From an uncultured Clostridia bacterium (GTDB lineage Bacteria > Bacillota > Clostridia > Oscillospirales > Acutalibacteraceae): a DNA stretch of 64,000 bases. Shown here in pieces: positions 55,880-63,530 of this stretch. The DNA lies in assembly GCA_946555465.1 (NCBI GenBank), contig CAMNST010000001.1, positions 1 through 64,000 on the forward strand, in the 5' to 3' direction. Every line of letters starts with the position of its first letter. Within the stretch, counting starts at the first letter, position 1. The notes beneath the pieces are model-generated. The model ran no database searches and had not been told where the DNA came from. It saw only the letters and a program-made list of their open reading frames with translations. The translations under genes and the position numbers were made by a program.

Positions 55880-56095
55880 AAAAAATAAAGACATTGAAAT
55901 TCAATGCCTTTATAATCCACCCAGCCGCCGCAGACTGACAATAACCTGCATCATAAAGCAGGTGGGTTTTACTCCGATCACTTTGTGCTACCAGCGTCCT
56001 GCAAAAGCAGGGAGGTCTGCATTCCCGTTTCACGGAAGATAAATCCCTATTAAAACGTGTTCGGGTTACTAAAGCCCACGGTTGTCGAGAAGGGC
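55880..56095 (-). ncRNA. ssrS: Structured small RNA, probably 6S RNA
   Basis: About 210 nt, transcribed leftward after the DUF1292 gene. It has no open frame but many paired elements: TTCCGTGAAACGGGAA, CCTGCTTTTGCAGG, ACCTGCTTTATGATGCAGGT, and a GCAGAC/GTCTGC helix joining 56020-56015 with 55935-55930. CTTTA near the 5' end pairs with TAAAG near the 3' end. A hairpin AAAGGCATTG/CAATGTCTTT and seven U end it. Size, position and the paired-end layout suggest 6S RNA, which sequesters SigA polymerase; I cannot run a covariance model, so identity is tentative. Confidence 0.55.
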
Positions 56096-56119
56096 AGATT
56101 TTTATTAACTTTTTATTTC

Positions 56120-56437
56120 TTATTGCTCAGGCTCGAAATATTCAACATCATATTTCTTTTCTACCATTGCCATGAGAATATCGGATACCTGTTCGTATTC
56201 AACTTCGTCTTCAATTTCGGCAAGGTATTCTTCATCGCCTTCATTTATAACTTTAAGAATGATAACTTCAAAATCACCGTCAATAATTTCCTCGTCGGTT
56301 TCATGATAACGGGTGATAGCAACATAAACATCTTCGTCTGTTTCATATCTTTCCAAAAGTTCAAACATGATTTCGTTTCCGTCTTCATCACTTACGCTGA
56401 TAATATCCGGTTCATAGTATTCTTCTTCTATAGCCAT
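56120..56437 (-). CDS. DUF1292 domain protein (YrzB family)
   Basis: 105 aa, very acidic. EPDIISVSDEDGNEIMFELLER and YVAITRYHETDEEI match the DUF1292 family found throughout Firmicutes near alaS and ruvX. Function unknown. It has its own promoter (next entry), and GAAAGG lies before the ATG. The putative 6S RNA follows 25 bases after the stop. Confidence 0.9.
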   Translation of the reverse strand: MAIEEEYYEPDIISVSDEDGNEIMFELLERYETDEDVYVAITRYHETDEEIIDGDFEVIILKVINEGDEEYLAEIEDEVEYEQVSDILMAMVEKKYDVEYFEPEQ

Positions 56438-56575: not shown

Positions 56576-56604
56576 TTGACAACTGACAAAAGATGTGCTA
56601 TTAT
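56576..56604 (+). promoter_or_regulatory. Near-consensus promoter of the large RNA
   Basis: TTGACA (56576-56581), 17 bases, TATTAT (56599-56604) with extended -10 TGC at 56596-56598. One of the strongest promoters in the window, yet no protein gene follows for 670 bases. Confidence 0.85.
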
Positions 56605-56610
56605 TTAGTT

Positions 56611-57210
56611 GAACAAAGGAGATAACCTTTAGGAAGCAGTTAAAGGATTATGATAAAGAAACACTTGTTCAAATTTACGTAAAGGAGGCTTGTCCGATGG
56701 ATCTTGAACCAGGTCAGACAAGCACCCGAGTTGTAATACAGTGAAATAATAACGGATTTATGTTTCGGCAGAGGTAAAACGGAATTACCTACGGAAACAA
56801 CGCTTTAAAAGTAATTATTAGTTATTTTGCAGGCATTGTATAATTACACCGGGTGCCAACAAAAATTAAATAGTTTATATATAGATATAAATTTTCGATT
56901 ATTAACCTGCAGATAATCTGTGGTAATAAACCATAAAATAATTAACTAGCACAGGTGAATTCCAATGGACTGATAAGAAAGCCTGAAAAGAAAAAACAAA
57001 TCAGGTTTCAGAATTTAATTAATAAAATTGTAAAGGGCTGAAAGATAGTTAAAATAAATATAATTAGAATGAATATGATGAATTTTAATAATATGGTATT
57101 TTAAGTGTTTTGAGGGCAGACCAATGTACTGATTAAATTATCGTTAAATAATTAATTAAAATTAAATAAGGTTAAAACTCTCGGTATGAATTTGCCGAGA
57201 GTTTTTTTCT
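56611..57210 (+). ncRNA. Large structured non-coding RNA, about 600 nt (ROOL/OLE/GOLLD-like candidate)
   Basis: No open frame. Helices I can trace: TTGAACAA (56609-56616) with TTGTTCAA (56665-56672) enclosing CCTTTA/TAAAGG; GCTTGTC (56688-56694) with GACAAGC (56717-56723); a long-range helix ACCCG, TGTAAT and ACAGTG (56724-56743) with CATTGT, ATTACA and CGGGT (56834-56854), enclosing AGGTAA/TTACCT; then a UUAUUACC-type hairpin near 56900 and CCTGA/TCAGG near 56982-57006. CCAATGGACTGAT (56962-56974) recurs as CCAATGTACTGAT (57121-57133). A terminator (CTCTCGG/CCGAGAG, then seven T) closes it. Length and organism fit ROOL best, but class membership is unproven. Confidence 0.8.
57177..57208 (+). 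terminator. Terminator of the large RNA
   Basis: ACTCTCGG (57177-57184) pairs with CCGAGAGT (57195-57202), followed by a T-run to 57208. The next promoter begins immediately after. Confidence 0.9.
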
Positions 57211-57238
57211 TGCTTATTTCGCTATGCTGTCATATAAT
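57210..57238 (+). promoter_or_regulatory. Promoter of uxaB-uxaA
   Basis: TTGCTT (57210-57215), 17 bases, TATAAT (57233-57238), 40 bases before the ATG at 57279. Confidence 0.6.
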
Positions 57239-60641: not shown

Positions 60642-60878
60642 AATATTTAACGGCTGTGACAAAAAGGAGTAATTTATTATTTTCTTTCAGAGAGTGTTCG
60701 GTTGGTGAAAGAACACAGAAAAGGTAAATGAAGGTAGTTTTCGAGCCGGCAGAGTGAAACTAAGTAGTTTTGTCCGTATTCCTGCGTTAAAGGATTGAGT
60801 GGCATTTTATAATGCAATTTGAGTGGTACCACGGAATTTTATGCTTTCGTCTCATTGTGAGATGAAAGCATTTTTTAT
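60642..60878 (+). promoter_or_regulatory. T-box riboswitch of valS, valine specifier (GUA)
   Basis: Stem I opens with CGGCT, closing with AGCCG at 60744-60748, contains AGTAA (opposite strand of the specifier loop) and CAGAGAG. The specifier reads GTA at 60734-60736, a Val codon, followed by a purine. The T-box element GAGTGGTACCACGGAA is at 60821-60836. The terminator arms ATGCTTTCGTCTCA (60841-60854) and TGAGATGAAAGCAT (60858-60871) with a T-run follow. Uncharged tRNA-Val lets transcription continue into valS. Confidence 0.92.
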
Positions 60879-60899: not shown

Positions 60900-63530
60900 A
60901 TGGCAAAAGATCTTGCAAAACAATATAATCCCTCCGAGTTTGAAGACAGAACGTATAAATTCTGGATGGATAATAAGTATTTTCACGCAAAAGGCGAGGC
61001 TGACAAAAAACCTTACACAATCGTTATTCCGCCTCCGAACATCACAGGTCAACTTCATATGGGCCATGCACTTGACAATACCCTTCAGGATATTCTGATC
61101 AGATATCACAGAATGAACGGTTATGACACCCTTTGGCTTCCGGGAACAGACCATGCTTCCATCGCAACTGAAGCAAAGATTGTTGAGGCAATGCGAAAAG
61201 AGGGAATTACAAAAGAGGATTTGGGCAGAGAAAAATTCCTTGAAAGAGCGTGGGAATGGAAAGCACAGTACGGCGGAAGAATTATTGAACAGTTAAAGAA
61301 AATGGGTTCTTCATGTGACTGGGACAGAGAACGCTTCACTCTTGACGAAGGCTGTAATAAAGCAGTTGTTGAGGTGTTTAATAATCTTTATGAAAAGGGT
61401 CTTATCTACAGGGGAGAAAGAATTGTAAACTGGTGTCCGCACTGCCTGACATCCATTTCAGACGCTGAAGTTGAGTATGAAGATCAGGCAGGTCATTTCT
61501 GGCATCTTCGTTATCCGCTTAAAGACGGCAGCGGATATGTTGAACTTGCAACAACAAGACCCGAAACGCTTCTTGGCGATACTGCTGTTGCAGTTAATCC
61601 TAAAGATGAAAGGTATAAGGAGTTAGTCGGCAAAACGCTTATTTTGCCTGTTGTTCACCGTGAAATACCGATTGTTGCCGATGATTATGTTGAAATGGAT
61701 TTCGGAACCGGTGTGGTAAAAATTACGCCTGCCCATGACCCTAATGACTTTGAAGTAGGACTTCGTCACAACCTTGAAGTGATTGATGTAATGACCGATG
61801 ATGCTCATATCAAAGAGGGATGGGGCAAATACAGCGGTATGGACCGTTATGAGTGCCGAAAAGAAATTGTTAAAGACCTTGAGGCAGAAGGTGCTCTTGT
61901 TGAAATTGAAGATTACAGCCATAATGTAGGAACTTGCTATCGCTGCGGCACAACCATTGAACCCAAGGTTTCAAAGCAGTGGTTTGTTAAAATGAAACCG
62001 CTTGCAGGCCCTGCTATTGATGCGGTTAAAAATGATGAAACAAAATTTGTTCCTAAGAGATATGAAAAAACATATTTTCATTGGCTTGAAAATATTCGCG
62101 ACTGGTGCATTTCCCGTCAACTTTGGTGGGGTCACAGAATTCCTGCATGGTATTGTGATGACTGCGGCGAAATTACAGTAAGCCGTGAAACACCATGCAA
62201 GTGCGAAAAGTGCGGCAGTGAACACATTCATCAGGATCCGGATACGCTTGATACCTGGTTTTCATCGGCGCTTTGGCCTTTCTCAACAATGGGATGGCCT
62301 GATAAAACATCTGATTATGCAAAATATTATCCGACCAATACGCTTGTAACCGGTTATGATATTATTCCGTTTTGGGTAATGAGAATGATGTTCTCAGGTA
62401 TTGAGCAGACAGGCAAAGTTCCGTTTGATACAGTTCTTATTCACGGTCTTGTTCGTGACGAGCAGGGAAGAAAGATGAGCAAATCGCTCGGAAACGGTAT
62501 CGACCCTCTTCTTATTATTGACGAGTACGGTGCAGATGCCCTCAGATTTACGCTTGCAACAGGAAACTCACCCGGTAACGATATGCGTTTTTCGGATGAT
62601 AAGGTTAAGGCTTCAAGAAACTTTGCCAACAAACTCTGGAATGCTGCGCGTTTTGTTCTTATGTATCTTACCGATGACTTTAAGTATGACGGTTTGCCGA
62701 ATGACCTTGCGATTGAGGACAAATGGATTGTTTCAAAGGTAAATACACTTGCAAAAGAAGTTACAGATAATCTTGAAAAATTTGAACTCGGCATTGCAAT
62801 TCAGAAACTCTATGATTTTATATGGGATGTTTTCTGCGACTGGTATATTGAAATTGCAAAAATCAGACTTCAGGGCGAGGATGAAAATGCCAAGAATACG
62901 GCAAAAGGTGTTCTTGTTTATGTTCTCACCGATATTCTTAAACTGCTTCATCCGTTTATGCCGTTTATTACAGAAGAAATTTATCAGGCAATCCCTCATG
63001 ATACACCGTCAATTATGATTTCTGAATGGGTTAAGTTTGATGATAATCTTTCCTTTGCTGCCGATGAGGCAGAAATGGAAAAGATTATGAAGGCTATCCG
63101 TGCAATCAGAAACAGAAGAAATGAAATGAATATCCCACCGAGCAGAAAAGCAACCGTTTACGTTGAAACTGCATGTGAAGATACTTTCAGAAACGGCGTT
63201 CAATTTATTCAGCGACTTGCATCTGCAAACGAAGTTGTTATCGGTGCAGATGTATCTGAACTGGGAAATACCGTAACAATCATTACTGATGATGCAAAAA
63301 TTTATATTCCTATGGGCGATCTTGTTGATTTTGAGGCGGAAAGAAAGCGTCTTGAAAAAGAACTTGCCCAGTGTCAGGATAAACTTGATTTTATTATGAA
63401 AAAACTTTCCAATCCGGGATTTGTTAATAAAGCACCTGAAAAAGTTGTTGAACAAAATAAGGCAGATGCTGCAAAACTTGAAGAAAAAATTGCAAATATT
63501 AAAAATTCTATTGAAACGCTCGGACAGTAA
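60900..63530 (+). CDS. valS: Valyl-tRNA synthetase
   Basis: 876 aa class Ia synthetase. HIGH-type motif [13 protein letters not shown], editing domain ([15 protein letters not shown]), a zinc-type [16 protein letters not shown] and [15 protein letters not shown] motif [11 protein letters not shown], and a C-terminal coiled coil ([20 protein letters not shown]) that grips tRNA-Val. It charges tRNA-Val and edits threonine. AAGGAG lies before the ATG. folC starts in its stop codon, as in Bacillus. Confidence 0.97.

Follow-up and report, generated by a model that had tools for sequence, protein, structure and literature searches.

The window, a 64,000 nt stretch of DNA from an uncultured Clostridia bacterium (contig CAMNST010000001.1, positions 1 to 64,000), carries on its plus strand an element that comparative sequence data identify as a real RNA gene, both the gene and its architecture being well supported. 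It opens with a promoter of the form TTGACA-17-TATTAT with an extended -10 (TG), which fits 11 of 12 consensus positions (56576-56604) and has the same form in homologues, and it closes with a terminator-like site of the intrinsic type, predicted from sequence (57174-57212; the scripted match spans 57174-57205). The divergent neighbour is a gene on the minus strand for a DUF1292 protein (56120-56437; Pfam PF06949, E 4.8e-13), which served as a syntenic landmark. Just downstream of that gene, also on the minus strand, is a candidate 6S RNA (55910-56103) whose score of 33.5 bits lies below the Rfam gathering score of 46.4; homologues of this 6S RNA score above it in L010, L121, L122, L123 and L125. 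Further along the plus strand, a T-box leader (60647-60857; Rfam, 145 bits) precedes an 876-aa ORF (60900-63530) that by eye is like valyl-tRNA synthetase.

Using blastn, 23 of 60 genomes matched the RNA, including the window's own; all were of one genus, and no match was obtained in 23 other genera. The divergent DUF1292 gene, detected in 63 of the 80 genus genomes, proved a better handle than blastn for locating RNA loci. We read the DNA ahead of DUF1292 in 60 of these 63 genomes (G003, G069 and G077 were left out) and in the named relative L073; from 75 loci at the start, three without the DUF1292 gene (L009, L017 and L020) and 11 repeats were dropped, leaving 61. The RNA was present in 57 of the 61. 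Three of the other four loci (L024, L026 and L054) lie on contigs that end just before DUF1292, and in the genome of the fourth (L056) the RNA is present on another contig. The 57 homologues comprise 56 from the window's genus and L073 (Clostridium sp. CAG:217). From 43 of these sequences we built a covariance model, R1, of the core. It gave a single hit in each of 60 genomes out of the 80 of the genus; of the 51 genus genomes with at least 90% completeness and at most 5% contamination, 44 were hit. Named carriers are an uncultured Eubacterium, Ruminococcaceae UBA7030, Clostridium sp. CAG:217, Eubacterium RGIG3418 (goat reticulum) and Oscillospiraceae SIG610, and the carrier bacteria are known in part from animal guts. 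Two alignments were used, A1 with 50 of the 57 sequences and A2 (the basis of R1) with 43; the omitted rows have large inserts or divergent cores, and the covariation figures given below therefore hold for the chosen rows. Three loci (L063, L064 and L067) have approximately 230-350 additional bases, beginning with a GGTGGCTGGTAAATCGCAGGGT block, ahead of the leader ORF described below (uORF1).

The original prediction was of an orphan RNA with its own promoter and terminator, and both elements are conserved among the 57 homologues. The promoter form was matched by pattern in 56 of the 57 and recognised by eye in the remaining one (L045), and a script detected terminators in 53, with RNA lengths of 451-766 nt. 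Counts alone do not set such sites apart from chance in this region (9 promoter-like sites found against 8.3 expected and 1 terminator-like site against 0.7), and a second promoter-like site, on the minus strand, also scored 11/12; we take the promoter and terminator as real because they are conserved in homologues. The RNA is likely to be transcribed on its own, as a product of ~600 nt in the window, because terminators are so widespread among the homologues and no constant gene lies downstream. A mannitol dehydrogenase homologue follows in 8 of 20 loci, a count limited by short loci, and other sequence stands behind several terminators. A cis-acting leader or attenuator is not supported, no conserved gene having been found past the terminator in these loci. 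The setting on ordinary chromosome away from phage also held, in that the RNA had no blastn match in phage or plasmid collections; one 21-base pattern from its mini-ORFs likewise had no match in viral contigs.

The nested and long-range helices proposed earlier were borne out by comparison: helices P3, P4, P5 and a pseudoknot covary, and the single-sequence fold of -139.7 kcal/mol is far below that of 20 shuffles (z -4.97). Across the 43 chosen sequences, two-sided changes were found in 31 of the 43 proposed pairs, and 91.7% of cells were paired in the proposed structure, compared with 80.6% for shuffles and 31-43% for slid structures. The covariation score (0.361 versus 0.181) was reached by none of 500 shuffles, although with this tool relatedness alone can beat shuffles. 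RNAalifold, run on 50 sequences, independently recovered P3a and both parts of P4. Judged from these comparisons, the fold is under selection.

All elements of the predicted structure lie on the plus strand. P1 pairs GAACAA with TTGTTC (56611-56616/56665-56670) around a variable hairpin; in 50 of the 57 homologues GAAC has a GTTC no more than 130 nt away, with many pairs extended as GAACAA/TTGTTC or GAACTT/AAGTTC, a weak test because GTTC itself was searched for. P2 is a hairpin (GCTTGTC/GACAAGC; 56688-56723) whose loop contains the AUG of uORF1 and at whose foot lies the Shine-Dalgarno (SD) site. The 57 homologues have 25 distinct best P2 helices, such as GGCTGAA/TTCAGCC and GGTCAAATT/AATTTGGCC, a few of which are short and may be due to chance; the sequence of P2 has been replaced wholesale and its complementarity kept. 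P3 (56723-56855) corresponds to the three-segment helix that had been predicted between 56724-56743 and 56834-56854, and is made up of CACCCG/CGGGTG (56723-56728/56850-56855), GTAAT/ATTAC (56733-56737/56843-56847) and ACAGTG/CATTGT (56738-56743/56834-56839). These segments covary in homologues, helix 2 being weak (62.5% of cells paired), and they are continued by ATAAC/GTTAT (56749-56753/56821-56825), which as helix 3 says little because it hardly varies. The 5′ strand of P3 is mostly the second half of uORF1. P4 (56762-56798; helices 4 and 5) is formed by GTTTC/GAAAC and an inner GGTAA/TTACC, with an internal loop of conserved CGGCAGA and ACGG, and showed two-sided changes in all 10 counted pairs. 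The pseudoknot (56829-56910; helix 6) joins GCAGG (56829-56833) to CCTGC in the loop of P5 (56906-56910), with 98.5% of cells paired and two-sided changes in three of five pairs. P5 itself (GATTATT/GATAATC; helix 7), which showed two-sided changes in seven of seven pairs, occupies 56897-56934 together with a small P6 (GTGGT/ACCAT) that was read off the alignment.

The RNA had been described as without a usable frame. Long frames are indeed lacking, yet uORF1, an ORF of 15 codons (MDLEPGQTSTRVVIQ, TGA) at 56697-56744 on the plus strand led by the SD sequence AAGGAGG (56682-56688), is conserved in kind, as are two-codon ORFs at 56965-56973 and 57124-57132, and the description does not stand. An SD-led ORF of 10-19 codons was found at the place of uORF1 in all 57 homologues, with TAA (43), TAG (12) or TGA (2) as stop codon; the other two frames each run for 9 codons without a stop in 22 of the 57. 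Third-position bias is slight (1168 versus 962 and 959 in 22 aligned copies), so the peptide appears hardly constrained and is not what is kept. A script placed the uORF1 stop 0-7 nt before the AUAAC strand of P3d, or overlapping it, in 51 of the 57 homologues; a hand check found two of these to be false (L027 and L028) and two others to have been missed (L055 and L060), giving 51 again, and in the remaining six the stop is earlier or unclear. By this comparison, it is the position at which uORF1 ends, rather than its peptide, that is kept in most homologues. As regards conserved codons in place of compensatory changes, compensatory changes proved abundant, in keeping with a structured RNA, but the starts, stops and frames of the tiny ORFs are conserved besides, and 'structured noncoding RNA' is therefore only half of the description.

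Downstream of the core, the tail of the window RNA has two sites on the plus strand that resemble landing pads for ribosomes: AGGTGAATTCCA-ATG GAC TGA (56953-56973), with the two-codon ORF MD at 56965-56973, and GAGGGCAGACCA-ATG TAC TGA (57112-57132), with the two-codon ORF MY at 57124-57132. The rule GG-N3-7-(U/A)CC-R-A identified 134 such sites in the 57 tails, 1-4 per RNA; CC is part of this definition and so cannot be counted from that set. An AUG is present at 130 of the sites, three of which are uORF1 copies in long variants, and is missing from four. At 115 of the 130 AUG sites there are at most three sense codons, the AUG included, before a stop, compared with 53 and 15 in the other frames and 33 when the downstream sequence was base-shuffled; in 89 of the 130 a single sense codon separates the AUG from the stop, which is the form of a two-codon minigene. 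Over all 57 RNAs, 107 sites with an SD, an AUG and a stop within five were observed, versus 15.0 +/- 3.9 in 100 dinucleotide shuffles; the window RNA by itself is moderately unusual, at least two two-codon ORFs having occurred in 20 of 2000 shuffles. Under a slightly different rule, the stops of 134 short ORFs were TAA (103), TAG (21) and TGA (9). The second codon ends in C at 121 of 140 sites, and the 3′-most mini-ORF begins AUG-UAC in 44 of the 57 homologues. Neighbouring sites are spaced 45-56 nt apart in 41 of 77 cases and further apart in the rest, none being closer; a spacing of 45-56 nt would leave room for one ribosome at each site. With an AUG followed almost immediately by a stop, the RNA looks as though made for loading ribosomes without making protein.

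The tail sites also have a conserved context immediately ahead of the AUG. When only the SD core and the AUG were required, CC was found at -3,-2 in 107 of 107 short-ORF sites, preceded by U (79) or A (28) and followed by A (86) or G (21). CCRATG occurs in only one of 42 window genes, and the CC of the tail is therefore not the local start context. The 3′ end of 16S rRNA in the genomes of relatives is GGCTGGATCACCTCCTTTCT (no match was obtained in the genome of the window itself), and in our model AGGU and UCCR would pair with UGGAUCACCU of 16S rRNA, separated by a short bulge, and R could be A or G because it faces a U. When gene-like bases were substituted for the final four of the leader, the predicted pairing became weaker in 112 of the 113 distinct sites (from a mean of -10.7 to one of -8.1 kcal/mol), and with the last 8 nt shuffled the native predicted pairing was the better one in 94 of 113 (-10.7 versus -9.15 kcal/mol). 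Compared with a predicted -9.2 kcal/mol for 42 gene starts, tail sites would pair 1.5 kcal/mol better with UCCR (-10.7) and more weakly without it (-8.1). An SD-occluding GG..CC hairpin was disfavoured, as the commonest flanks would leave a U-U. According to PMC8708949, earlier work has ribosomes on strong-SD minigenes re-initiating without dissociation. Because tail SD cores are ordinary, mostly GAGG or GAGGU, that behaviour would apply here only if UCCR pairs; if the extended pairing is real, such re-initiation would suit a holding device.

We also looked for the RNA beyond the genus, using a pattern scan of 300 family genomes and 60 DUF1292-upstream regions in the order (L142 being only 514 bases). 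The pattern scan matched 13 genomes, three of them of the window's genus; six loci were read (L107, L113 and L114 were left out) and L119, which lies within a coding gene, was discarded. Scanning the order with a covariance model matched three of 295 genomes, two of which were of the window's genus; the hit in L086 (E 2.1e-5) is inside an unrelated reading frame and was also discarded. The same kind of RNA was found in the family genera g25, g26, g27, g28, g215 and g35, and in g47 and g67 of a second family (f26); for g35, no DUF1292 gene was seen within the 7 kb examined. Most of these RNAs have a leader ORF of approximately 17-20 codons, and their short ORFs are often MY. A promoter fitted the pattern in L126, L127, L129, L130, L136, L184 and L185 and was recognised by eye in L118. 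Terminators were assessed by eye, and in L122 and L123 neither a promoter nor a terminator could be established. On the RNA strand, the strict motif GG..UGA(G/U)UCCNA was present in 8 of 11 regions of family f1, one of two of f26 and none of 47 others, versus one of 60 regions on the opposite strand. In other genera the motif is often AAAGGnnUGAGUCCRA, nearer to the complement of GGAUCACCUCCUUU. Mini-ORF counts over the order regions gave 13 forward and 3 reverse hits, and the two forward loci outside both families are probably due to chance.

AAG or AAA replaces the AUG in copies from g215, g25, g26, g27, g28 and g35 (one AUG-less copy in g215 is AAAGGGTGAGTCCAAAG); many of these, though not all, have an in-frame stop within the next few codons. 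Such copies argue against a strict need for initiation. In g215, L122 (3600-6000) and L123 (1560-3450) have versions well over 1 kb in which pads with an AUG (GGAGGATAGTCCGATG..) occur alongside pads that lack it (GAAAGGGTGAGTCCAAAG..); several of the pads without AUG retain an in-frame stop. A different RNA beside DUF1292 was rejected in family f13, where the divergent neighbour resembles by eye an infC-rpmI-rplT operon: in L151, L152, L154 and L156 this apparent operon, with promoter and leader, takes the RNA's place.

By comparison, then, the homologues have in common a covarying pseudoknotted core, a uORF1 that overlaps P2 and P3, and a tail of one to four SD-led start-stop sites. From sequence alone we infer the function of the RNA in general, and with it that 30S subunits would bind, that translation of uORF1 and folding of the core would exclude one another, and that the RNA would act on the ribosome pool. 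Our main reading, to which we give a probability of roughly 0.45, is that the product of this gene is both folded and ribosome-binding, most likely a growth-state sensor or ribosome sponge that holds or counts initiating ribosomes. When free 30S subunits are available uORF1 would be translated, and the ribosome would open up P2 and the greater part of P3 before halting at the next helix; when initiation is scarce the core would fold. In the tail, 30S subunits would dock through the extended helix of AGGU and UCCR with 16S rRNA, and a two- or three-codon ORF would end elongation at once, leaving the ribosome tethered or re-initiating on the spot, so that the mini-ORFs would serve to stop the ribosome and not to make peptides. 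More tentatively, we suggest that the RNA may represent a new regulatory RNA class, a sponge for ribosomes and translational counterpart of 6S RNA, in which several 30S subunits would dock on the extended SD/UCCR helix over minimal ORFs and translation of the leader ORF would unfold the pseudoknotted core, thereby gauging free ribosomes. If ribosome binding is true, two bacterial families would have an RNA that acts directly on their capacity for translation, with minigenes as working parts of a dedicated RNA and not as a leader device before a gene. Two-codon ORFs can be toxic, which counts against a ribosome-loading reading.

Several other explanations carry lower weight. The function may instead reside in the folded 5′ core, through binding of a ligand, protein or RNA, with the ribosomes on the mini-ORFs forming only a coat that shields the tail from RNases or Rho. 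This is a possible reading of somewhat lower probability: the core is conserved and covaries, and ribosomes on minigenes may protect mRNA (PMC8708949), but the codon form, spacing and CC context of the tail are kept beyond what shielding would appear to need, and pad arrays in genus g215 are longer. We consider it unlikely that the tail is a decoy that titrates an antisense RNA or a repressor recognising SD-UCCR-AUG, with the stops averting wasteful translation. The rarity of CCRAUG at the genome's starts (the one gene in 42 noted above), as opposed to its universal presence in tail sites, would fit such a decoy, as would the retention of UCC in AUG-less copies; a self-pairing GG..CC recognition hairpin would be poor, however, since the commonest flanks leave a U-U. 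Less likely again is a dual-function messenger for the uORF1 peptide and a clade-limited basic peptide of 10 codons, such as MLRKFIVSKK. In its favour are the 10-codon ORF itself, which starts with ATG in 10 loci and TTG in six, and basic 14-codon ORFs in L122 and L123. Against this, third-position bias is weak in uORF1 and in the 10-codon ORF (442 versus 342 and 270 for the latter), the 10-codon ORF was found in only 16 of 57 loci and by a purpose-made filter, and two-codon products carry little information.

Kinship with ROOL, OLE, GOLLD or another known large ornate RNA is highly improbable. Their size, and the habitat given for ROOL in the original prediction, speak for it; against it, at gathering score Rfam did not hit the RNA and had a single hit anywhere in the window, the T-box leader at 60647-60857, and ROOL, OLE, GOLLD and raiA are absent from the 15 scattered weak matches at E <= 10. 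Rfam at gathering score likewise hit only 6S, tRNA, cobalamin and Gut-1 in 14 related loci. With no Rfam family matched, ROOL, OLE and GOLLD are left unsupported. The suggestion that this could be a new family is supported. To our knowledge, the functions of ROOL, OLE and GOLLD are unclear. PMC12286853 presents them as large structured bacterial RNAs, and the window RNA is likewise large, structured and bacterial; it differs from them in the SD-led ORFs of every homologue and in matching no Rfam family. In contrast to ROOL, described in the original prediction as often carried by phage or adjoining tRNA genes, the RNA has no tRNA gene in its window and no phage or plasmid match.

6S RNA sequesters RNA polymerase with growth state. 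The window RNA resembles it in being a stand-alone structured RNA, and a 6S RNA sits beyond the same DUF1292 gene; it is nevertheless a separate gene, has no RF00013 match at E <= 10, and has the ribosome as its proposed target. CsrB-type sponge RNAs are noncoding RNAs in which a short binding motif recurs several times, and a short motif is similarly repeated here, with the difference that it is a whole ribosome-binding site with start and stop codons. Two-codon minigenes are also known from the bar locus of phage lambda. Those of the axe-txe leader have the same succession of SD site, AUG, one sense codon and stop, but according to PMC8708949 they work in cis ahead of a gene, whereas those described here are arranged in tandem on an RNA that ends at a terminator and is followed by no constant gene. 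In the literature searched, no known RNA family was found to combine a covarying pseudoknot domain with a row of conserved start-and-stop ORFs. None of the paper titles and abstract beginnings describes such an RNA, a result that leaves absence from print unproven. A 2017 study is said to list 224 candidate structured RNAs.

Two further observations concern parts of these loci. The basic 10-codon ORF lies among the tail sites of L008, L012, L014, L015, L025, L042, L044, L046, L048, L050, L051, L053, L058, L063, L064 and L068, and in some of these its start is by eye inside a small hairpin. In L010 and homologues, a conserved stretch around AA-CUGAAUA lies 3′ of P3; it resembles AAAACTGAATA found 3′ of 16S in L186, L187 (16S-23S spacer), L189 and L191, though not in L188, L190 and L192, and is perhaps a boxA-like element.
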